From Terriglobia bacterium (GTDB taxonomy: Bacteria > Acidobacteriota > Terriglobia > Acidiferrales > UBA7541), in assembly GCA_020072805.1 (NCBI GenBank), contig JAIQGC010000050.1, forward strand, positions 1 to 40,394: a stretch of DNA of 40,394 bases. Direction: 5' to 3'. Under the pieces are notes generated by a model that had not been told where the DNA came from, did no database searches, and was given only the letters and a program-made list of their open reading frames with translations. The position numbers and the translations under genes were made by a program. Each line of letters begins with the position of its first letter. The first letter of the stretch is position 1. This document shows positions 2 to 11,063 of this stretch, piece after piece.

Positions 2-103
2 AAGGTCTATAATGTGTTTGATCTCCTTGGATTCCCCATTCTGTATGAGATTTACAAGGATGAAAAGGAAGCAATCGGCAGATTCAAGGATGGAAAGAAG
101 TAG
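2..103 (+). CDS. C-terminal end of a STAS-domain protein (anti-sigma factor antagonist-like), partial
   Basis: Only the last 33 codons are in the window, ending at the TAG at 101-103. The peptide begins KVYNVFDLLGF and has the pattern of the last helix of STAS domains (a VFDLLGF-type helix, then a DEKEAIGRF-type segment). STAS proteins are usually anti-anti-sigma factors that bind RsbW-type kinases; that role is family knowledge, since the phosphorylated Ser region is off the edge. The stretch is visibly richer in A/T than what follows. Its stop codon directly abuts an internal piece of truB with no intergenic space, which is abnormal and suggests an artificial or recombination junction. The short length keeps confidence moderate. 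Confidence 0.5.
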   Translation, partial: KVYNVFDLLGFPILYEIYKDEKEAIGRFKDGKK

Positions 104-695: not shown

Positions 696-3308
696 TTACG
701 GCTCCACCGGCGGCCCCGCCGGCACTTTTTCCGCTCCGCCGCGGCCCGCATAAATCGGGCGCGCGCCCTTCTCCGGCAGACGCAGCCGCCGCGGCGTCAC
801 CAGGATCAGCATCTGCGTCTCGCTCGTTTGTTTGGCGTGCGAGCCCACGGTTGCCGCGCCGGGAAAGCCCGGCAGCCCGCTCAGCGCGCGCATCTCTTCG
901 CGGTCGAGCAGCCCGCCGATCAGCGTCGTCTCGTTTTCCTTGAGCCGCGCCGTCTGGCTCAGCGTGCGGTTGGAGAGAATGGGAATGCCGTTGACGCTTT
1001 GCCCCGATAGCGCGCGGATTTCCAGTTCCAGTTGCAGGGTCACTTCTCCCCGCGGGTGCATGACCGGCGTGGCTTTCAGCTTCAGCCCCAGGTCCACGAA
1101 TTCCGATCCCGGATACGGCTGCGGAGAAAGCCCGGCTCCCGCCGCGTTTCCCCCGAAGCTCACCGGATCGAACTCCAGCGAAACCGCGTTGGCCGTCCGC
1201 TCCACGATGGCGGCGTCCGGCCTGCCATCCCCGTTGAAATCCGCGGCAACCAGCGCCACCGGCCCCGCCGCCGTGGGCAGTCCGAAGCGCGGCGCGAACA
1301 GGCCGCTGCCCAGCCCCAGGTAAATGCTGATGCTGTCCGCGCCCTGATTGGTCAGCACCAGGTCCGCAATGCCGTCCATGTTCACGTCCGCCACGGCCAC
1401 GCCCGAAGGCGTGGTGGACGCCGCCAGCGGAGAGCCGAGCGCTGCCGCGAATGTTCCATCGCCTTTGTTCAGCAGGACGCTCACCGTGTTGTCCGTCTGG
1501 TTCACCACCGCCAGGTCCGCGCGCCCGTCTCCGTTCAGGTCGCCCGCTGCCAGCGCCGCCGGACCCGCGCCCACGCTCAGCGGAGAACCGGGCGCGGTCG
1601 TAAACGTTCCGTCTCCGTTTCCGTTGAGCACCGTTACGTTGTTCGTCGCCCGGTTGACCACCGCCAGATCCAGTTTTCCGTCCCCGTTAAAATCCGCGGC
1701 CACCAGCGCCCCCGGCGTTTGCTGGCCCGTCCCCAGCGCAATGGGCGATTCTGGCGCCGCCGTGAATCCCCCCGCGCCGTCTCCCAGAAAAATCGAAATG
1801 GTGTTGTCCGCGGAATTGCTCACCGCAAAATCGATCTTTCCGTCTCCGTTGAAATCTCCGGTGACGATTCCGGCGGGCCCGCCTCCCGCCGCGAGGGGAG
1901 AAGAAGGCGCCGCCGAAAATGTTCCGTCGCCCTTGCCCAGCAGGATGGTGACGTTGCCGCTGGTCTGATTGGCCACCAGCAGATCGAGCAGGCCGTCGCC
2001 ATTAACGTCGGCGGCCGCGATGGCCGCCGGCCCGCTCTGTCCCGCGCCCAGCGCGATGGGCGAACCCGTCGGCGCGGTGAAATTGCCGTTGCCCTGATTG
2101 AGCAGGATGCTGATCGAATTGTCGCCGCTATTTACCACCGCCAAGTCCCGCTGCCCGTCGTGGTTGAAGTCCGCGGCCACCAGCGCCACCGGCGCCTGCC
2201 CCACGGGAAAATCGCTGCGCGGAAGCAGCCCGCTTCCAATCACGGGCGTTCCGCTTCCCGTGCCCGTGCTCGCGGAATACTGCAGGAGCGTCACCGGATA
2301 GCGCTCGCCCACGAAAAAACTGGCCGGCTTGCCGTCCTGCGCCCGTAGCAGTATGCGCCTCCCGCTATTCACCAGCGTCAGCGCTTCGGAAAACTCCGCC
2401 GCCGCCCCCGGCATCGTTCCCAGGATCGTGCTCCGGCCTCCGCCGAAGGCGATCAGCGGCGGCAGCAGCGCCCCCGCGCCGATCTGCCCGCTGCTCAATA
2501 ACGATGCGATTTGCCCCGCAGAGCCGCCCAGCGCTCCCTGGGCGCCGAAGATTTTCTGCAACAGCCCGATCAGCGTCTCCAGATCCGTGGCCTTCTGCAA
2601 GGCGCTCAGGTCGCTTGGGCTGAGCGCGATCAACTGCGCCGTCGTCGGCGGGGTCACGCCCAGCTTGCGCGCCTCGGCCGCGTCCACTTCGAGCAGTTCG
2701 ATCTCCAGCAGCAGTTCGCCGCGCGGCTGCTCGATCTGCCGGATCAAGTCCCCGGCCATGCCCACGACTCCCGGCGTGTCCCGGATGGTGACCGTACGGT
2801 TGCGCGAGTCCAGCAACACCCTCGTCGCCCCGGTCATCTCCCGCACAATTCGCTGGATCTCGGTCATTTCCTCGGGGGCCACCGCCGCGGGCAGCAGGAA
2901 CGTCTGCTCGATGGTCAGTTCATACTCCTTGCGCTTGGCCGGCGTGTCCGAGGCCACGAAAAACGTGTCCGCGCTCACCGCCCGCAAGAACGTTCCCGTC
3001 TGCATGGCCAGCAGCCGCGCCGCCGTCGGAAAATCCACCTCCGGAATATGCAGCTTCACGCGCCGCTCGGTCAGCTCGGGATCGAAGCGCGCCTTCAGTC
3101 CATAGGCCGCCGCCACCTGCTCATAGGCGGCCGTGGTCGTTCCGCGCAGCTCAAAACCGTGCTTGCCCGCTTGTGGCCGCAATTGTGGGCTGCCTTCGGC
3201 CAGGCGCGCCTCGCTGCTGGGTGGCGTCTGGGCCGGCGTCCGGGCAGAGCCCGCCAGAGCCGCCAGGAGCAGAGCGGTCCGCATCGCGAATTTGCAGGCG
3301 CAATTCAT
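696..3308 (-). CDS. Orphan secretin-family protein with seven VCBS/FG-GAP repeats inserted in the secretin domain
   Basis: 870 residues. A signal peptide occupies about residues 1-27 (hydrophobic TALLLAALAG). An STN/N0-like domain follows at about 50-120 and an N1-like domain (secretin_N fold) at about 130-200. The secretin domain starts at about 198 (LLLEIELLEVD) and runs to about 345. Seven VCBS/FG-GAP repeats follow, each with a calcium-loop core such as DFNGDGKLD. The secretin domain then resumes at about 734 with VDLGLKLKATP and ends near LILVTPRRLRL. Secretins form outer-membrane gated channels for type II/III secretion and type IV pili. No pilus or secretion gene is nearby, so the partner is unknown. 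The inserted repeats are predicted to fold as a separate propeller-like or adhesin-like module. The start ATG at 3308 is the only good one before the signal peptide. Confidence 0.85.
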   Translation of the reverse strand: MNCACKFAMRTALLLAALAGSARTPAQTPPSSEARLAEGSPQLRPQAGKHGFELRGTTTAAYEQVAAAYGLKARFDPELTERRVKLHIPEVDFPTAARLLAMQTGTFLRAVSADTFFVASDTPAKRKEYELTIEQTFLLPAAVAPEEMTEIQRIVREMTGATRVLLDSRNRTVTIRDTPGVVGMAGDLIRQIEQPRGELLLEIELLEVDAAEARKLGVTPPTTAQLIALSPSDLSALQKATDLETLIGLLQKIFGAQGALGGSAGQIASLLSSGQIGAGALLPPLIAFGGGRSTILGTMPGAAAEFSEALTLVNSGRRILLRAQDGKPASFFVGERYPVTLLQYSASTGTGSGTPVIGSGLLPRSDFPVGQAPVALVAADFNHDGQRDLAVVNSGDNSISILLNQGNGNFTAPTGSPIALGAGQSGPAAIAAADVNGDGLLDLLVANQTSGNVTILLGKGDGTFSAAPSSPLAAGGGPAGIVTGDFNGDGKIDFAVSNSADNTISIFLGDGAGGFTAAPESPIALGTGQQTPGALVAADFNGDGKLDLAVVNRATNNVTVLNGNGDGTFTTAPGSPLSVGAGPAALAAGDLNGDGRADLAVVNQTDNTVSVLLNKGDGTFAAALGSPLAASTTPSGVAVADVNMDGIADLVLTNQGADSISIYLGLGSGLFAPRFGLPTAAGPVALVAADFNGDGRPDAAIVERTANAVSLEFDPVSFGGNAAGAGLSPQPYPGSEFVDLGLKLKATPVMHPRGEVTLQLELEIRALSGQSVNGIPILSNRTLSQTARLKENETTLIGGLLDREEMRALSGLPGFPGAATVGSHAKQTSETQMLILVTPRRLRLPEKGARPIYAGRGGAEKVPAGPPVEP

Positions 3309-4821: not shown

Positions 4822-4850
4822 TTGACGGTGGTAGCTCCGGAGCGTACACT
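4822..4850 (+). promoter_or_regulatory. Candidate sigma70-type promoter of the iron-import operon
   Basis: TTGACG (4822-4827) and TACACT (4845-4850) are separated by 17 bp, upstream of the FTR1-DUF2318 start at 4890. The rest of the 250-bp gap from 4639 holds nothing else I recognise. Confidence 0.5.
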
Positions 4851-4859
4851 GAAATAGAC

Positions 4860-4883
4860 AGTTGCAACTGATGTGCAACTGAT
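4860..4883. promoter_or_regulatory. Possible operator: palindrome plus direct repeat before the iron operon
   Basis: AGTTGCAACT (4860-4869) is a perfect 10-bp palindrome. TGCAACTGAT occurs twice (4863-4872 and 4874-4883) with an 11-bp period, about one helical turn. It lies just downstream of the predicted transcription start, where a repressor would block the operon. No known iron-box consensus matches. Confidence 0.35.
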
Positions 4884-4889
4884 AGACCC

Positions 4890-6158
4890 ATGTTTTCCGC
4901 CTTTCTCATCGCCCTGCGCGAGGGTGTCGAAGCCGCTCTCGTCGTCGGCATCATCCTGGTCTACCTCGCGCGCACCGGCCGCGCCGGCTTGGCCCGCTAC
5001 GTCTGGTTCGGGGTTGCCGCCGCTTCCACGCTCAGCCTGGCCGTGGTCCTGGCGCTGGAAAAATGGCGCATCACCCAGGACGGCTTCGAAGGTTTCCTCA
5101 TGCTGGTCGCCGCCTTCTTCGTCGTCACCGTCATCGTGTGGATGAATCGCGTCGCCCGTCACCTCAAAAAAGAGATCGAATCGCGGGTGGAATCCTACGC
5201 CGGGCGCGCCGCGGGCTTCGGCCTCCTGCTCTTTGTCTTCTTCATGGTTCTCCGCGAAGGCGTCGAGATGGCTCTGATTCTTCGCGCCGTCGAAGTCTCC
5301 TCCGAAGGCCTGCAAACCTGGATCGGCACGCTTTCCGGGATCGCCGCGGCCGTGGCCGTGGGCCTGTTTTTCTTCAAGGGTTCGCTGCGCGTTCCGCTGC
5401 ACCGTTTCTTCGCCGTCACCAGCGCCATCCTCATCCTGGTCGCCCTGCAGTTGGCCCTCACTGGCCTGCATGAACTCAGCGAAGCGCGCTGGCTTCCCTC
5501 CAGCAAAGGCGAAATGGCCTTGATCGGCCCCATCGTCCGCAATGATCTTTTCTTTTTCGTGTTTATTCTCGGCGCCGCCGCCCTGCTGGTCTTCCGCGAA
5601 TGGATGACCCTCGCCCACGCCGTTCCTCCTTCCGCTCCACAGCAGGAGCCGCCTCTCAATGACGCCGAGCGCCGCCGTCTGGAATGGGAGCGCCGCCGCC
5701 AGCGCCGCTGGATGATGGCCGCCGCGCTCGCGTGCCTCGTCGTTCTCCTCGCGCTTACCGCCGACTTTATTTACGCTCGCGCCGCCTCCGCTCCTCCTCA
5801 GGCGCGTCCCATGGAAGCTGTCAACGGCCAGGTGCGCATCCCGCTCTCCGAAGTGCAGGACTCCAATCTGCATCTCTTCTCCGTGAAAGTGAACGGCGCC
5901 TCCCTGCGCTTTCTGGTGATTCGCAAGCCCAACGGCTGGGGCACGGCGCTGGACGCCTGCCGCATCTGCGGCGCTGCCGGTTATCATCAGGACGGCCAGA
6001 ACGTCATCTGCCGCCATTGCGCTTCGGCCATCTATATTCCCTCGATCGGAGATCAGGGCGGCTGCAACCCCATTGGTGTACCCTATCGAGTGGACGGGGC
6101 GGATCTGGTTCTCGACGTTTCCGCTCTTGCCCAAGCCTGGACCGAGGTGCCCAAGTAA
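4890..6158 (+). CDS. FTR1-family iron permease fused to a C-terminal DUF2318 domain
   Basis: 422 residues. The N-terminal half is an FTR1/EfeU-type permease with about seven membrane segments and both diagnostic iron-binding REGxE motifs, R10-E14 in the first helix and R122-E126. A further membrane segment at about 270-292 leads into a C-terminal DUF2318 domain on the far side of the membrane, with cysteines C357/C360, C374/C377 and C392 (GGCNP). FTR1 proteins import iron; DUF2318 proteins occur in the same operons and are thought to handle metal or electrons. In the Campylobacter p19 locus these are separate genes, and here they are fused. It is first in an operon with two FtsX-type permeases and an ATPase. 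The ATG at 4890 gives the standard FTR1 N-terminus. Confidence 0.92.
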   Translation: MFSAFLIALREGVEAALVVGIILVYLARTGRAGLARYVWFGVAAASTLSLAVVLALEKWRITQDGFEGFLMLVAAFFVVTVIVWMNRVARHLKKEIESRVESYAGRAAGFGLLLFVFFMVLREGVEMALILRAVEVSSEGLQTWIGTLSGIAAAVAVGLFFFKGSLRVPLHRFFAVTSAILILVALQLALTGLHELSEARWLPSSKGEMALIGPIVRNDLFFFVFILGAAALLVFREWMTLAHAVPPSAPQQEPPLNDAERRRLEWERRRQRRWMMAAALACLVVLLALTADFIYARAASAPPQARPMEAVNGQVRIPLSEVQDSNLHLFSVKVNGASLRFLVIRKPNGWGTALDACRICGAAGYHQDGQNVICRHCASAIYIPSIGDQGGCNPIGVPYRVDGADLVLDVSALAQAWTEVPK

Positions 6159-6186: not shown

Positions 6187-7488
6187 ATGTTCCTCCGTCT
6201 CGTTGCCGACTCCTTCTCCCGCCGCGTCAGCCGCAAGCTGCTCACCGCTGGCGCGCTCGCTCTGGGCATGGCCGTGGCCACCGCTGCGTTGAGCGTCTCG
6301 CTGGATGTCGGCGACCGCCTGGCCTTCGAATTTCGCAGCCTGGGCGCCAACCTTTTCGTTACTCCGCACGCCGATTCGCTCCCCTTGGAAATCGGCGGCG
6401 TGGACTACCGCCCGGCCAACGCCGGCGCGGATCTTCCCGAAGCCTCGCTCCCCAAGCTCAAGACCATTTTCTGGCATAACAACATCGTCGGCTTCGCTCC
6501 TCTGCTCGATCTCCCCGTCGAAGCCTGGTCCGCTGCACTAAAAACTCCTCCGCCCACCGGCGGCGCTCCGCGCGCCACGCTCATCGGCACCTGGTCCCGT
6601 CATCCTCTGGCCATTCCCGACGGGGGCACGTTCGTCACCGGCGTGGAAAAGACCAATCCCTGGTGGAACGTCGAAGGCCACTGGTTCGCCGAGGACATGC
6701 ACGAATGTGTCGTCGGTGTGGCCTTCGCCCGGCGCGCGGCTCTGCGCATCGGCGATACCGTGGTTCTCCGCGCCGACGGGCAGACTATTTCCCTCACGGT
6801 TTCCGGACTGCTGACCACCGGCGGTCCGGAGGACGAAGCCATCGTGGCTCCGCTTTCCTATGCCCAGCAACTCGCCGGCCGCCCCGGAACTTTTCGCCGC
6901 CTCTACATCAGCGCCATTACCAAGCCCGAGGACGCATTTGGCCGCCGCGACCCCTCCGGTATGACTCCCGCGGAATTCGACCGCTGGTTCTGCACTCCCT
7001 ACATCTCCTCGATCGCCCTGCAAATCGAGCAGGCGCTCCCCGGCACCGACGCCCGCGTCATTCGCCGCGTGGCCGAGGGCGAAGGCCGCATCCTCACTCG
7101 CGTTCGCGTGCTCCTCTGGCTGGTGGCTGCCGCGGCTCTGCTGGCCGCGTCGCTCGCCGTGGGCGCCACCTCCGCTGCCACCATCATCGAGAGGCGCACA
7201 GAGATCGCCCTCATGAAAGCCCTGGGCGCCGGTTCCCCCATGGTCAAAAGCCTTTTTGCCGCCGAGCAGATTCTGCTCGCCGCGGTTGGCGGCGGCGCCG
7301 GCTACGCCATCGGCATTCTCCTCGCGCGTTTTCTCGGGCAGATTGTTTTCGGCGCCTCTCCCGCGCCCAGCCTGCTGGTTCTGGCCGTGGTCCTGGCTCT
7401 CGCCATTTTCGTCACCCTCGCGGGCAGCTTCTTTTCCATGCGGCGCGCCGCCCGTTATGAACCCGCGCCCATCCTGCGAGGCGAATGA
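6187..7488 (+). CDS. FtsX/MacB-type ABC transporter permease (first of two)
   Basis: 433 residues with MacB/FtsX topology: one membrane helix near residues 18-38, a large extracytoplasmic domain, then three helices in the last third, ending RYEPAPILRGE as typical of the family. It starts 28 bp after the FTR1-DUF2318 gene and overlaps the next permease by 4 nt (ATGA). By analogy with the Cj1658-1663 and FetMP-FetABCDEF systems it should pair with the second permease and the ATPase as a transporter or energiser linked to FTR1-dependent iron uptake. The role is inferred from context; the substrate is not visible in the sequence. The ATG at 6187 is chosen because the N-terminal helix follows directly. 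Confidence 0.88.
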   Translation: MFLRLVADSFSRRVSRKLLTAGALALGMAVATAALSVSLDVGDRLAFEFRSLGANLFVTPHADSLPLEIGGVDYRPANAGADLPEASLPKLKTIFWHNNIVGFAPLLDLPVEAWSAALKTPPPTGGAPRATLIGTWSRHPLAIPDGGTFVTGVEKTNPWWNVEGHWFAEDMHECVVGVAFARRAALRIGDTVVLRADGQTISLTVSGLLTTGGPEDEAIVAPLSYAQQLAGRPGTFRRLYISAITKPEDAFGRRDPSGMTPAEFDRWFCTPYISSIALQIEQALPGTDARVIRRVAEGEGRILTRVRVLLWLVAAAALLAASLAVGATSAATIIERRTEIALMKALGAGSPMVKSLFAAEQILLAAVGGGAGYAIGILLARFLGQIVFGASPAPSLLVLAVVLALAIFVTLAGSFFSMRRAARYEPAPILRGE

Positions 7489-8648
7489 TGTTCTGGCGCC
7501 TCATTCACAGGCTCCTGCAGGCCAACCGCGGCCGCCTGGTCACCGTCCTGCTCGCCCTGGGCGCCGGCGCCGCCATCACCGCCGCGCTGCTCAATCTTCG
7601 CGTGGACGCGGACGCCCGCCTCACGCGCGAATTCCGCTCCTTCGGCGCGAATGTGGTCATCGCTCCTCCGCCCGCCGGGCTCGGCTCTGCGCAATCCCCG
7701 CAAACCGCCACCCTCGATGAATCCGTTCTCCAGCGCGTCCCGGCGCAGTTTGCCGGCGCTCCCGTGGCCGCCGTCCCTTTTCTCTATCTCGTCGCGGAGG
7801 TTTCCAATCCCGCTGCCGCTCTGCACACCGTGGTCCCCGCCGTCGTCGCCGGCACTCATCTTCCCGGACTTGCGCAAGTGGGCCCCGGCTGGCGTTTCGA
7901 TCCGCCGTCTTCTTCTTCGTCGCAATCGGTCCGCTGTTTGGTGGGCGCCCGCGTCGCTTCTCAATTCGCCGTGCGCCCCGGTGCGACGCTCCTCCTGCAA
8001 TTCGCCGGAAGGGAAGAGCGCTGCGTCATGGACGGCATCCTCTCCGCCGGCGGCGCGGAGGACAATCAGATCTTCGTGGACCTCGCCGCGGCGCAGCGCC
8101 TTGCCGCGCAGCCCGGCCGCGTCAGCCTGGTGCAGTTGAGCGTCACCGGCAATCCCCGCGCCATCGAATCGTTTCTCGCCGCGCTCTCCGTTGCTCTCCC
8201 GCAGGCTGCCGTGCGCGGCGTCCGCCAGTTCTCCGACGCCGAAGCCCGGCTCTACGAACGCATCCGCGGCCTGCTCTCCGCCACCGTGGCCATTATCCTT
8301 GTCCTAACCGCTCTTTGCGTCATGGCCGCCATGACCAACGCCGCCATGGAGCGCCAGCACGACGTCGGCCTGATGAAAGCGCTGGGCGGGCCGCTCTCGC
8401 GCATCCTGCACCTCTTCCTCGCCGAAGCCGCCCTTCTCGGTCTCGCCGGCGGCATCCTCGGCGCCGCCGTGGGCATGCTGCTTTCCATAGGGCTCGGCTC
8501 GGCCGTCTTCGGCGTGGCGGCGCAGCCGCGCTGGATTGTGTATCCTGTTACTGTTTTCCTGACGGTCGCCGTCGCCGTGGCCGGCGCTTTTCCGCTGCGG
8601 CGTCTCGCGTCGGTCCGTCCCGCCGTTATTTTTCGGGGAGAGGCATGA
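7485..8648 (+). CDS. FtsX/MacB-type ABC transporter permease (second of two)
   Basis: 387 residues, similar in layout to the preceding gene: an N-terminal membrane helix (residues 15-35), an extracytoplasmic domain, then three C-terminal helices, with the family ending RLASVRPAVIFRGEA. The conserved GLMKALGG coupling segment follows the first of these three helices, where these permeases touch their ATPase. The start overlaps the previous stop and its own stop overlaps the ATPase start (ATGA at both ends), so the three are translationally coupled. ATG codons at 7485 and 7488 are both possible starts. Two different permeases suggest a heterodimeric membrane unit. Confidence 0.88.
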   Translation: MMFWRLIHRLLQANRGRLVTVLLALGAGAAITAALLNLRVDADARLTREFRSFGANVVIAPPPAGLGSAQSPQTATLDESVLQRVPAQFAGAPVAAVPFLYLVAEVSNPAAALHTVVPAVVAGTHLPGLAQVGPGWRFDPPSSSSSQSVRCLVGARVASQFAVRPGATLLLQFAGREERCVMDGILSAGGAEDNQIFVDLAAAQRLAAQPGRVSLVQLSVTGNPRAIESFLAALSVALPQAAVRGVRQFSDAEARLYERIRGLLSATVAIILVLTALCVMAAMTNAAMERQHDVGLMKALGGPLSRILHLFLAEAALLGLAGGILGAAVGMLLSIGLGSAVFGVAAQPRWIVYPVTVFLTVAVAVAGAFPLRRLASVRPAVIFRGEA

Positions 8649-9730
8649 GCGTCCAGGTGCAGATCGAATCGCTCGTCAAGCAATACGGCGCGCTGCGCGC
8701 CCTCGACGGCCTCTCCTTCAGCGTCGACGCCGGCGAATGGATTGCCCTGATGGGCCCTTCCGGCTCCGGCAAGACCACCCTCGTCAATATCCTCGGCGGC
8801 CTGGACACGCCCACCTCCGGCCGCGTCCTCGTCGACCACCTGGAAGTCTCCCGGCTCTCCGAATCCGAACTCGTCCGCTACCGCGCCGAAAAAGTCGGCT
8901 TCGTCTTCCAGCAGTTCCACCTCGTTCCCTACCTCACCGCCGTAGAAAACGTCATGCTCGCCCAGTATTTTCACAGCGTCACCGACGAGCCGCAGGCTGG
9001 CGAAGCCCTCCGCCGCGTCGGCCTGGGCGACCGCCTCGCCCATCTCCCCGCGCAGCTTTCCGGCGGCGAACAGCAGCGCGTGGCCATCGCCCGCGCCCTC
9101 ATCAACCAGCCGCGCATCATCCTGGCCGACGAGCCCACCGGCAATCTCGATGAAGCCAACGAAAAAATCGTCATGGAGATTTTCCGCGAGCTGCACAGCG
9201 CCGGCCACACCATTCTCATGGTCACGCACGATTCCCTGATCGCCCGCGAAGCCGACCGCCGCGTCGAGCTGGCTCACGGCCGGCTCCAGCAGATCTCCGC
9301 CGTCTCCGCCGAAGATCAGATGCGCTTCGACCATCTCCTCGAGCAGATCTGGATCTGCGGCGAAGAGGGCACCACTGCCAGCGTCGAGCGCATCCGCACT
9401 CCCGGCTCGGTGGATCCCGTCAAGACCCTGGCCCGCCTCGTGGATTTAAAACTCGTCGAACTCCACGGCCGCGACGTTCAGCTCACCGACCTGGGCAGCC
9501 ACCGCGCCCGCGACGTCATCCGCCGCCACCGCCTCGCCGAGCGCCTCTTCCGGGACACCTTCGCCATCAGCGATTCCGAAGCGCACACCCAGGCCTGCGA
9601 ATTCGAACACATCATCAGCCCCGAACTTGACGAGCGCATCTGCTCCTTCCTCGGCCACCCTACCTCCTGCCCCCATGGCAATCCCATTCCTCCGGGCGCT
9701 TGTTGCTCCGGAAAATCCGGCCCCAAATAG
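8645..9730 (+). CDS. ABC transporter ATPase fused to a C-terminal DtxR/IdeR-like iron-sensing module
   Basis: 361 residues. Residues 1-220 are a complete MacB/LolD-type ATPase: Walker A GPSGSGKTT (37-45), Q-loop near 89, signature LSGGEQQ (138-144), Walker B and DEPTGNLD (158-169), H-loop H195. Residues 226-350 align along their length with DtxR/IdeR iron-dependent repressors: a winged-helix-like part (FDHLLEQIW to VQLTDLG), then the metal-binding/dimerisation domain. H295, E299, H314, C318, E321 and H322 fall at the DtxR positions H79, E83, H98, C102, E105 and H106, followed by the typical GNPIP. The recognition-helix region is about three residues shorter than in DtxR, so DNA binding is doubtful. 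The tail adds a CC pair. The simplest reading is an iron importer ATPase with its own metal sensor. Confidence 0.9.
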   Translation: MSVQVQIESLVKQYGALRALDGLSFSVDAGEWIALMGPSGSGKTTLVNILGGLDTPTSGRVLVDHLEVSRLSESELVRYRAEKVGFVFQQFHLVPYLTAVENVMLAQYFHSVTDEPQAGEALRRVGLGDRLAHLPAQLSGGEQQRVAIARALINQPRIILADEPTGNLDEANEKIVMEIFRELHSAGHTILMVTHDSLIAREADRRVELAHGRLQQISAVSAEDQMRFDHLLEQIWICGEEGTTASVERIRTPGSVDPVKTLARLVDLKLVELHGRDVQLTDLGSHRARDVIRRHRLAERLFRDTFAISDSEAHTQACEFEHIISPELDERICSFLGHPTSCPHGNPIPPGACCSGKSGPK

Positions 9731-9744
9731 GAAATCCGCTCCCC

Positions 9745-10122
9745 ATGCCCATTCCCCTCGATATCCGAAAAAAGCCCGCTGACGTCAAAATTCACGTATC
9801 CTCCGGCGCCGGCGTGGACATCACCTGGGCCGATGCCCACTCCAGCCACTTCGATTTCGCCTACCTGCGCGATGAATGCCCTTGCGCCGCCTGCAACGAC
9901 GAGCGCCAGAAAAAAATCGCTTTCGCCGCTCCTTCCTCCTCGCCTCTGCTGCCCATTTTCAAGCCCAAGCCCCGCGCCACCTCCGTCGTTCCCGTGGGCA
10001 ATTACGCCATCCAGATTTTTTTCTCCGACGGCCACTCCTCCGGCATCTTCAGCTACGACCATCTCCGCACCATCTGCCCCTGTCCCGATTGCGCCCGCTC
10101 CTTCCGCTCCCCGGCTCCCTGA
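9745..10122 (+). CDS. DUF971 domain protein
   Basis: 125 residues. It shows the DUF971 (gamma-butyrobetaine hydroxylase-like N-terminal) pattern: a tryptophan-led strand (ITWADAHSSHF), LRDECPCAAC, FSDGHSSGIFSYDHLRTICPCPDC. DUF971 proteins are found alone or beside Fe-S assembly ATPases (Mrp/ApbC) and are suspected to have a role in Fe-S or metal metabolism. The two CxxC-like clusters (CPCAAC and CPCPDC) could hold a metal. It starts 14 bp after the ATPase-DtxR stop and is almost certainly in the same operon, which supports an iron-related job. Confidence 0.85.
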   Translation: MPIPLDIRKKPADVKIHVSSGAGVDITWADAHSSHFDFAYLRDECPCAACNDERQKKIAFAAPSSSPLLPIFKPKPRATSVVPVGNYAIQIFFSDGHSSGIFSYDHLRTICPCPDCARSFRSPAP

Positions 10123-10214: not shown

Positions 10215-11063
10215 ATGCCCTGCGATCCCGAAGTCCTCAAGAATGTTCCCTTGTTTGCCTTGCTGGATAATGAGGAGATCGCTGTCCTCGCCGCCCAGGT
10301 CGAACTCCGCCAATTCGCCGCCCGCCAGCGCATCTACAAAATGGGCGAACCTGGCGGCCGCGCCTATGTGGTTGTCTCCGGCCGCGTTCGCGTCACCACC
10401 CTCGACGAGGACCAGCAGGAGGTTATCGTGGACGAAACCATTCCGGGCGAATTCTTCGGCTTCGCCTCCATGCTCGAGAGCTCCTCCCACCAGACTTCCG
10501 CCGTCGCTCTGGAAGACACCCTGTGCATCGAAGTGGATCGCGACGACATCACTACCCTTCTCGCGCGCAAGCCCCACGCTGGGATGGACCTCCTCACCAC
10601 ACTGGGCCGCCAGATTCATGCCGCACAGCATCTGGTCCGCCTGCGCGCCTCCCGCAATCCCAATCTGCTCATCGAAACTCGCGCCACCCTCGGCGAGCGT
10701 GTCGCCGACGCCGTCGCCCGTCTCGGCGGCTCCTGGTCCTTCATCATCGCTTTTGGAATTCTTCTGGTCGCCTATATCGCCACCAACGTCCGCATGCATT
10801 CCGCTGCTTGGGACCCCTACCCCTTCATCCTTCTCAATCTCTTCCTCTCCATGTTGGCCGCCGTTCAGGCGCCCGTCATCATGATGAGCCAGAACCGCCA
10901 GGACGAAAAAGACCGTCTCCGCGGCGAACTTGATTTCGACGTCAACCGCCGCGCCGAATCCGAAATCCAAGGCCTCTCCCGCAAACTCCACTTCCTCGCC
11001 GAGCAGGTCTCCGACCTCCAAGACCTCATCCGCGACTCCCTCTCCTCCGGCCGCCCCAGCTGA
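10215..11063 (+). CDS. Cyclic nucleotide-binding domain protein with DUF1003 membrane domain
   Basis: 282 residues. Residues 1-130 form a CRP-like cNMP-binding beta-roll (PLFALLDNEE, GEPGGRAYVVVSGRVRV, PGEFFG). DUF1003 follows, with two membrane helices at about 175-195 and 205-225 (GSWSFIIAFGI and PYPFILLNLFLSMLAA) and the conserved MMSQNRQ. A coiled-coil-like tail ends the protein. There is no helix-turn-helix, so it is a membrane-linked sensor and not a CRP-type regulator. The ligand is unknown; the domain may bind a nucleotide or serve as a docking module. It lies 92 bp after DUF971 and probably closes the operon. The ATG at 10215 puts the beta-roll at the very N-terminus. Confidence 0.85.
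   Translation: MPCDPEVLKNVPLFALLDNEEIAVLAAQVELRQFAARQRIYKMGEPGGRAYVVVSGRVRVTTLDEDQQEVIVDETIPGEFFGFASMLESSSHQTSAVALEDTLCIEVDRDDITTLLARKPHAGMDLLTTLGRQIHAAQHLVRLRASRNPNLLIETRATLGERVADAVARLGGSWSFIIAFGILLVAYIATNVRMHSAAWDPYPFILLNLFLSMLAAVQAPVIMMSQNRQDEKDRLRGELDFDVNRRAESEIQGLSRKLHFLAEQVSDLQDLIRDSLSSGRPS

Follow-up and report, generated by a model that had tools for sequence, protein, structure and literature searches.

The open reading frame (ORF) at positions 8645-9730 of a 40,394-nucleotide stretch of DNA from a Terriglobia bacterium of the phylum Acidobacteriota (contig JAIQGC010000050.1; the whole stretch is called the window here) encodes, in one unbroken frame, a protein of 361 residues in which an ATP-binding cassette (ABC) transporter ATPase is fused to a module of the DtxR/IdeR type. 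DtxR proteins are textbook iron-dependent repressors. We found that the metal-binding and dimerisation half of DtxR is conserved in the fused modules, and that the helix-turn-helix (HTH) half is eroded and shortened. Since the metal-binding half is kept while the DNA-reading half has decayed, direct iron control of the transporter is suggested. The reading that we prefer, with moderate confidence and by analogy with known transporters, is that the repurposed module may be a built-in cytoplasmic sensor, which gates the transporter of the FTR1/FtrD system post-translationally.

Fusion of an ABC ATPase to a DtxR-type module

Pfam places ABC_tran at residues 20-165 of the protein (expect value, E, 1.4e-35) and Fe_dep_repr_C (PF02742), the metal-binding and dimerisation domain of DtxR, at residues 281-349 (E 3.7e-27), and the DNA-binding domain of DtxR (Fe_dep_repress, PF01325) is absent from its matches. 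Thus, of the three families that the initial annotation had named for a domain search, ABC_tran and Fe_dep_repr_C were found and Fe_dep_repress was not, and its description of a complete MacB-like ATPase joined in one frame to a DtxR-type module agrees with both the Pfam matches and the open frame. The ATPase part is nearest to the LolD, MacB and FtsE models of NCBIfam, below the curated cut-off for all models shown, and its predicted structure is closest to MacB- and LolD-type nucleotide-binding domains. The module sequence alone matched the PDB chains of DtxR and IdeR with a best E of 1.3e-18. The likeness to DtxR/IdeR had been said to run along the whole length; this holds for the two-domain fold and fails for the third, SH3/FeoA-like domain, since the Pfam scan of the fused modules gave no FeoA match.

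In order to describe the family, we used a set of 72 distinct fused modules drawn from across the phylum, with exact duplicates removed. A sequencing or assembly error at about base 9310, including a missing stop, was rejected because the frame is clean there and because these 72 distinct homologous modules share an uninterrupted ORF with the ATPase. The fusion is therefore real. Its occurrence was surveyed in 101 genomes centred on the window and in an even draw of 297 Acidobacteriota genomes. The fused gene was verified by sequence in 54/101 genomes of the first sample, including G025, in which the gene is cut by a contig end, and G037, in which it is split over two contigs; in the remaining 47 genomes absence is not established, as some are incomplete and the operon of G004 leaves its contig. 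In the even draw, the fused gene was found in 21/297 genomes. Where a fused locus extends 4.6 kb or more upstream, FTR1 is present in 23/23 cases and both permeases in 22/23 (some genes were fetched twice). No fetched locus carries the module beside a separate copy of the same ATPase, and standalone modules adjoin feoB instead, so the alternative that homologues always consist of two genes does not hold; the apparent two-gene split in G037 turned out to be one gene cut by two contig ends.

No fusion was found outside Acidobacteriota in the sampled genomes. Among the module matches listed for the phyla of G393 and G391, the longest open frame has 283 amino acids, too few for the fusion, apart from one of 427 amino acids in G437 that turned out to be an ordinary DtxR. 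Genomes of three further phyla (146, 149 and 148) gave no module match at E 1e-26, in a search that had no positive control.

The DNA-reading and metal-binding halves of the module

The control set comprised 19 of the 20 ordinary DtxR paralogues fetched from related genomes, among them that of the window's own genome (G000:C116). At E 0.01, Fe_dep_repress was matched in 0/72 fused modules compared to 19/19 ordinary paralogues. The mean pairwise identity of the fused modules was 0.30 in the winged-helix half and 0.66 in the dimerisation half, while that of the paralogues was 0.81 and 0.75, respectively; since the fused set covers a wider range of genomes, it is the contrast between the halves that counts and not the absolute values. 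Within the fused modules, conservation is lowest in the HTH half, and the opposite is true in the paralogues. In addition, the residue at DtxR position 37, which belongs to the turn leading into the recognition helix (numbered after the actinobacterial DtxR, L229), is missing from 72/72 fused modules and from 0/19 paralogues, and the stretch around this position has 12 different lengths in the former and one in the latter. The eight residues by which DtxR contacts DNA, according to an excerpt of PMC7762939, are a weak discriminator, since the ordinary paralogues themselves keep just 3 to 4 of the eight; the fused modules keep 0 to 4 (59/72 keep two or fewer).

An AlphaFold2 model of the module (11-row alignment; predicted local distance difference test, pLDDT, 86.9) shows the two-domain DtxR fold and its wing; a helix of 10 residues stands at the recognition position, and helix 2 is reduced to a 3-residue turn. 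Hence, the winged-helix part is shortened, as the initial annotation had noted, and the shortening affects the HTH turn and helix 2, not the recognition position, where a helix is still modelled. Foldseek superposed the model on IdeR/DtxR over about 130 residues (E about 1e-8), and VIA-align gave a best Z of 19.5 and a root-mean-square deviation of 3.1 across 138 residues to DtxR. Taken together, the sequence comparisons suggest that the ability to bind DNA was likely lost.

Two further observations concern modules of this type. Eight of the fused modules (L042, L043, L044, L045, L047, L052, L160 and L164) have extra residues in the wing, ahead of its second strand, in which the motif HxHKPFxNPCHD is conserved; this insertion may form another metal loop, and less strict forms of the motif occur in L161, L163, L166 and L167. 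Paired DtxR-type matches within about 1.2 kb were observed at G080:C60:4932-6072, with similar pairs in G072, G094, G100 and G092 of the same class.

In the metal-binding half, all six ligands named in the initial annotation (H295, E299, H314, C318, E321 and H322) were found in the window protein. Across the family the site is less uniform. In DtxR numbering, E83 is kept in 72/72 fused modules, C102 and E105 in 71/72 each, H106 in 70/72 and H79 in 60/72, while H98 is kept in only 27/72 (Glu in 31). The position of M10 (D8 of MntR) is occupied by His in 40 modules, Glu in 28, Asp in 3 and Asn in 1, and in the window protein it is H230. Thus, the claim of a canonical site stands for the window's six residues and is weaker for the family, in which H79 and H98 vary and M10 is replaced. 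The ordinary paralogues have Asp at the M10/D8 position and Glu at the C102 position, a metal set which we take to be MntR-like.

A second group of residues, C333, H338, C342, H344, C353 and C354, is invariant in 72/72 fused modules. In the ordinary paralogues, C333, C353 and C354 are missing in 19/19 and H338 is found in 1/19, while C342 and H344 are shared. The motif C-x8-CPH-x8-CC is present in 72/72 fused modules, 37/39 feoB-linked modules and 0/19 ordinary modules. Such a spacing of four cysteines is suggestive of a metal or iron-sulphur (Fe-S) centre.

Standalone relatives, operon and promoter

Searches with the fused modules also returned standalone proteins of roughly 200-230 residues that carry the same module. 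The HTH-turn deletion is present in 36/38 of them, and PF01325 was matched in 5/37, with a best E of 6e-4. A C-terminal FeoA domain was found in 37/37 scanned, as it was in the ordinary paralogues (19/19). In the phylum sample, 36/39 standalone proteins have a same-strand feoB gene within the DNA fetched around them, and two of the three without it sit on short contigs; the five standalone proteins of the 101-genome sample also adjoin feoB. As a comparison, feoB was found beside 0/19 ordinary paralogues, within shorter stretches of about 3 kb. The association extends to other phyla: in that of G393, 61/198 genomes match the module at E 1e-18 (some of the weakest matches are ordinary DtxR, as in G437), with feoB at 11 of the 12 best loci examined, and in that of G391, 18/249 genomes match at 1e-26, with feoB at 9/12 loci examined. 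One genome, G228, carries both the fused and the standalone form, and a 69-column tree gives no resolved order of standalone-first and fused-first. A fur-feoB-ideR cluster is reportedly present in Geobacteraceae.

Since the module is fused to the ATPase of the FTR1/ABC system and is also found beside feoB, it accompanies two unrelated iron importers. This raises the broader idea, which we put forward only tentatively, that a DtxR-derived family gave up DNA reading and became a post-translational iron sensor, separate for FeoB and fused for FTR1/ABC, in which the Cys4/His site, perhaps as an Fe-S centre, would be the actual sensor.

In the window, the fused gene belongs to an operon whose genes (FTR1-FtrD, two permeases, ATPase-DtxR) overlap or stand close together (Table 1). 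The gene order FTR1, DUF2318, two permeases, ATPase is that of Campylobacter jejuni 1649-1654, according to an excerpt of PMC6083913. The operon had been called an iron-import operon. The iron-uptake context stands, as the iron permease is FTR1, while the term import ABC is loose, since the ATPase and both permeases are of the MacB/LolCDE/FtsX class. No match to P19 (PF10634) was found across the whole genome of the window, in a search whose control was positive in only 1/14 genomes. The DUF971 gene directly follows the ATPase-DtxR gene in many relatives of the same family, whether or not the module is present, and its product may have a link to Fe-S. Elsewhere in the window, positions 10215-11063 encode a cyclic-nucleotide-binding domain joined to DUF1003 in one protein (Pfam), and the minus strand at 696-3308 encodes an 870-residue protein, which we take to be secretin-like in look, with many repeats presumably of the FG-GAP/VCBS type.

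Table 1. Positions of the fused gene's parts, its operon and its promoter in the window
Feature	Position	Strand	Basis
Candidate sigma-70-like promoter TTGACG, 17 bases, TACACT	4822..4850	+	read from sequence
21-bp palindrome AGTTGnWAnnnnnTnnCAACT, candidate operator just 3' of the -10 box	4860..4880	.	one mismatch to pattern
FTR1 iron permease fused to FtrD-like (DUF2318) domain	4890..6158	+	Pfam FTR1 E 1.4e-35, FtrD-like E 3.9e-24
ABC permease 1 (MacB_PCD + FtsX)	6187..7488	+	Pfam
ABC permease 2 (FtsX)	7485..8648	+	Pfam
ATPase part, MacB/LolD/FtsE type (residues 1-217)	8645..9295	+	Pfam, NCBIfam, model
DtxR-type module, two-domain DtxR fold (residues 220-361)	9302..9730	+	Pfam, AlphaFold2, Foldseek, VIA-align
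Winged-helix half (residues 222-280), HTH turn deleted, helix 2 a short turn in the model	9308..9484	+	alignment, Pfam, AlphaFold2
H230 at the M10 position	9332-9334	+	alignment
DtxR metal-site residues H295, E299, H314, C318, E321, H322	9527..9610 (first-last codon)	+	alignment
Second Cys/His site C333, H338, C342, H344, C353, C354	9641..9706 (first-last codon)	+	alignment
GBBH-like_N (DUF971) protein, directly 3' of the fusion	9745..10122	+	Pfam; common among relatives too

A loose promoter pattern, TTGAY-15..19-TANNNT, is found in 27/29 FTR1 upstream regions. The palindrome pattern, which was derived from the relatives' upstream regions themselves, is exact upstream of FTR1 in 20/29 operons examined. 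In the window, 0.02 matches with at most one mismatch are expected, and the observed number was reached by 1/100 shuffles. Genome-wide, the palindrome occurs once or twice per genome in 8/13 genomes, with no exact copy in the window's genome; G003 also gave a match to the reversed control pattern, and its exact site is not at FTR1. In G061, one copy is flanked by a Fur-family gene and a TonB-receptor gene, and in G062 one precedes a TonB receptor. The exact palindrome is also kept in 4/4 operons without the module, which argues indirectly against a repressor role of the module and indicates that another regulator probably reads the candidate operator. A separate and plausibly Fur-like regulator would be the simplest reader; that it belongs to the Fur family is a guess from the one locus in G061.

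The operons without the module belong to four relatives (L048-L051) and keep FTR1, both permeases and the ATPase. The module search of their genomes returned only DtxR of the ordinary type, one truncated before the HTH. In a 55-row ATPase tree, the four module-less rows are placed within the fused rows and need two changes. Since the tree was built by a quick method, with Shimodaira-Hasegawa-like approximate likelihood ratio (SH-aLRT) support only, and the count of changes is blind to gain versus loss, we say only that two losses of the module seem the simplest reading.

Mechanism, alternatives and known systems

In the proposed mechanism, when cytosolic iron is sufficient, Fe2+ would occupy the DtxR site, or C333, C342, C353 and C354 would take up a metal or an Fe-S centre, or both. 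Metal loading would alter the pairing of the two modules within the ATPase dimer, and the altered pairing would trap the nucleotide-binding domains in an unproductive state. Iron uptake would then stop without transcription, by trans-inhibition as in MetN and ModC. Transcription of the operon would be left to the other regulator acting at the promoter palindrome. Since a DtxR dimerisation domain sits at the end of an ATPase that itself dimerises, the topology suits a stop of the MetN/ModC type. In addition, the Cys site and the link to FeoB recall the control of FeoB stability by FeoC. The initial annotation, whose interpretation is supported in part, had offered two readings, direct gating and a moonlighting repressor. 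Of these, we favour direct gating; the moonlighting repressor is weakened, as the HTH family was matched in 0/72 fused modules and the palindrome probably has a separate reader.

Several results weigh against a built-in sensor. Both domains of the predicted fold, including the winged helix, still align with those of DtxR, and Arg is retained at DNA-contact position 47 in 50/72 fused modules, so some DNA binding may persist. The DtxR site is damaged in L138 (C102 to L, H106 to P) and in L130 (E105 to D, H106 to Q), while both retain an intact Cys site. The four operons that are intact without the module show that it is dispensable. Finally, MetN and ModC serve importers whose ABC class differs from that of the MacB-type machines.

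We weighed three other explanations. The module might act as a membrane-tethered or cleaved repressor which, when loaded with iron, binds DNA and represses its own operon, the eroded HTH reflecting a new operator or binding mode. The largely intact two-domain fold (helix 2 excepted), the frequent Arg47, the rare palindrome at the FTR1 promoter and the precedent of YtgC-YtgR, whose repressor is released by cleavage (PMC5599777, in excerpt), would fit this. We nevertheless consider it unlikely, because it has to accommodate an HTH family match in none of the fused modules, an HTH half that is the least conserved part where in ordinary paralogues the reverse is true, few DNA-contact residues compared to the paralogues, and a palindrome that survives in operons without the module and lies in one genome between Fur and TonB-receptor genes. 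A free module made from an internal translation start was also considered and rejected, as no conserved internal Met was found (any Met in 30/72, the commonest position in 15/72; GTG and TTG were not counted).

Alternatively, the module could be a FeoC-like stability or assembly factor, in which a Cys-bound Fe-S cluster senses iron or oxygen and sets whether the ATPase and transporter are kept or degraded, or passes iron to the next protein, with no switch of ATP hydrolysis. Conservation of the Cys site slightly exceeds that of the DtxR site (72/72 versus 70-71/72), the sister module-FeoA proteins adjoin FeoB, and excerpts describe FeoC, which carries an Fe-S cluster, as shielding FeoB from FtsH (PMC10710835) and as a winged-helix fold without demonstrated DNA binding (PMC7762939). 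This explanation appears quite unlikely to us, since the Fe-S proposal is based solely on the conservation and spacing of the cysteines and a covalent fusion to the ATPase suits allosteric control at least equally well. The fusion could also be an evolutionary relic, a repressor gene that was joined to its neighbour and is drifting with no important function. The two changes on the ATPase tree, most simply losses, and the highly variable HTH half with its insertions are in keeping with drift, while the conservation of the metal and dimerisation half and of the Cys site over 72 distinct sequences across the phylum makes a relic very improbable.

If the built-in sensor is correct, the fusion would show a route from a transcription factor to an allosteric transporter subunit, and the direct shut-off of iron importers could be studied in Acidobacteriota as well as in the FeoB-linked homologues of other phyla. 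The genes surrounding the ABC part in C. jejuni are tied to iron acquisition (PMC6083913, in excerpt), and an iron-sensing domain on the ATPase would offer a handle on the mechanical role of the ABC part, of which we met no account.

The claim that the regulator of known iron systems is always a separate protein is contradicted by YtgC-YtgR of Chlamydia, an ABC permease-DtxR fusion, and by permease-repressor fusions reported in 11 phyla (PMC5599777, in excerpt). We met no description of the ATPase-DtxR fusion, the HTH-eroded family or the Cys site in the openly licensed papers searched, although DtxR-ABC permease fusions are known. Like YtgC-YtgR, the ATPase-DtxR protein is a single-gene, covalent union of a DtxR-type regulator with a component of an iron ABC transporter; there, the partner is a permease and the DNA-binding repressor is freed by cleavage, while here the partner is an ATPase and the module has an eroded HTH and an extra Cys site. 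The MetN and ModC ATPases halt when substrate pairs their C-terminal domains across the dimer (PMC10710835, in excerpt). The fused module resembles the MetN C2 and ModC C-terminal domains as a small terminal substrate-sensing domain on an ABC ATPase, which would pair across the dimer. The domains themselves, the substrates (methionine or molybdate/tungstate) and the ABC class are different, and inhibition is demonstrated there and proposed here.

With DtxR and IdeR, the module shares the two-domain fold, the dimerisation half and the ligands H79, E83, C102, E105 and H106; it differs in having no HTH family match or SH3/FeoA domain, a deleted HTH turn, His in place of M10 in the window protein, the extra Cys site and the fused ATPase. 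The standalone module-FeoA proteins have the same module, HTH-turn deletion and Cys motif, but lack the ATPase, end in a FeoA domain and have FeoB as their partner. The C. jejuni 1649-1654 gene order is conserved in 33 species, and the 1649-1656 cluster, likewise a conserved operon, encodes FTR1, a DUF2318 protein, two permeases and an ATPase; it includes P19, as a separate gene, and thioredoxin genes, its ATPase is entered as a plain ATP-binding protein, and the excerpted account mentions no DtxR module (PMC6083913). In the window's system, FTR1 and FtrD are fused and P19 was not found in the genome. Finally, FeoC, in the excerpts of PMC10710835 and PMC7762939, is a small separate protein that likewise has a winged-helix fold with no demonstrated DNA binding; it carries an Fe-S cluster and regulates an iron importer post-translationally.

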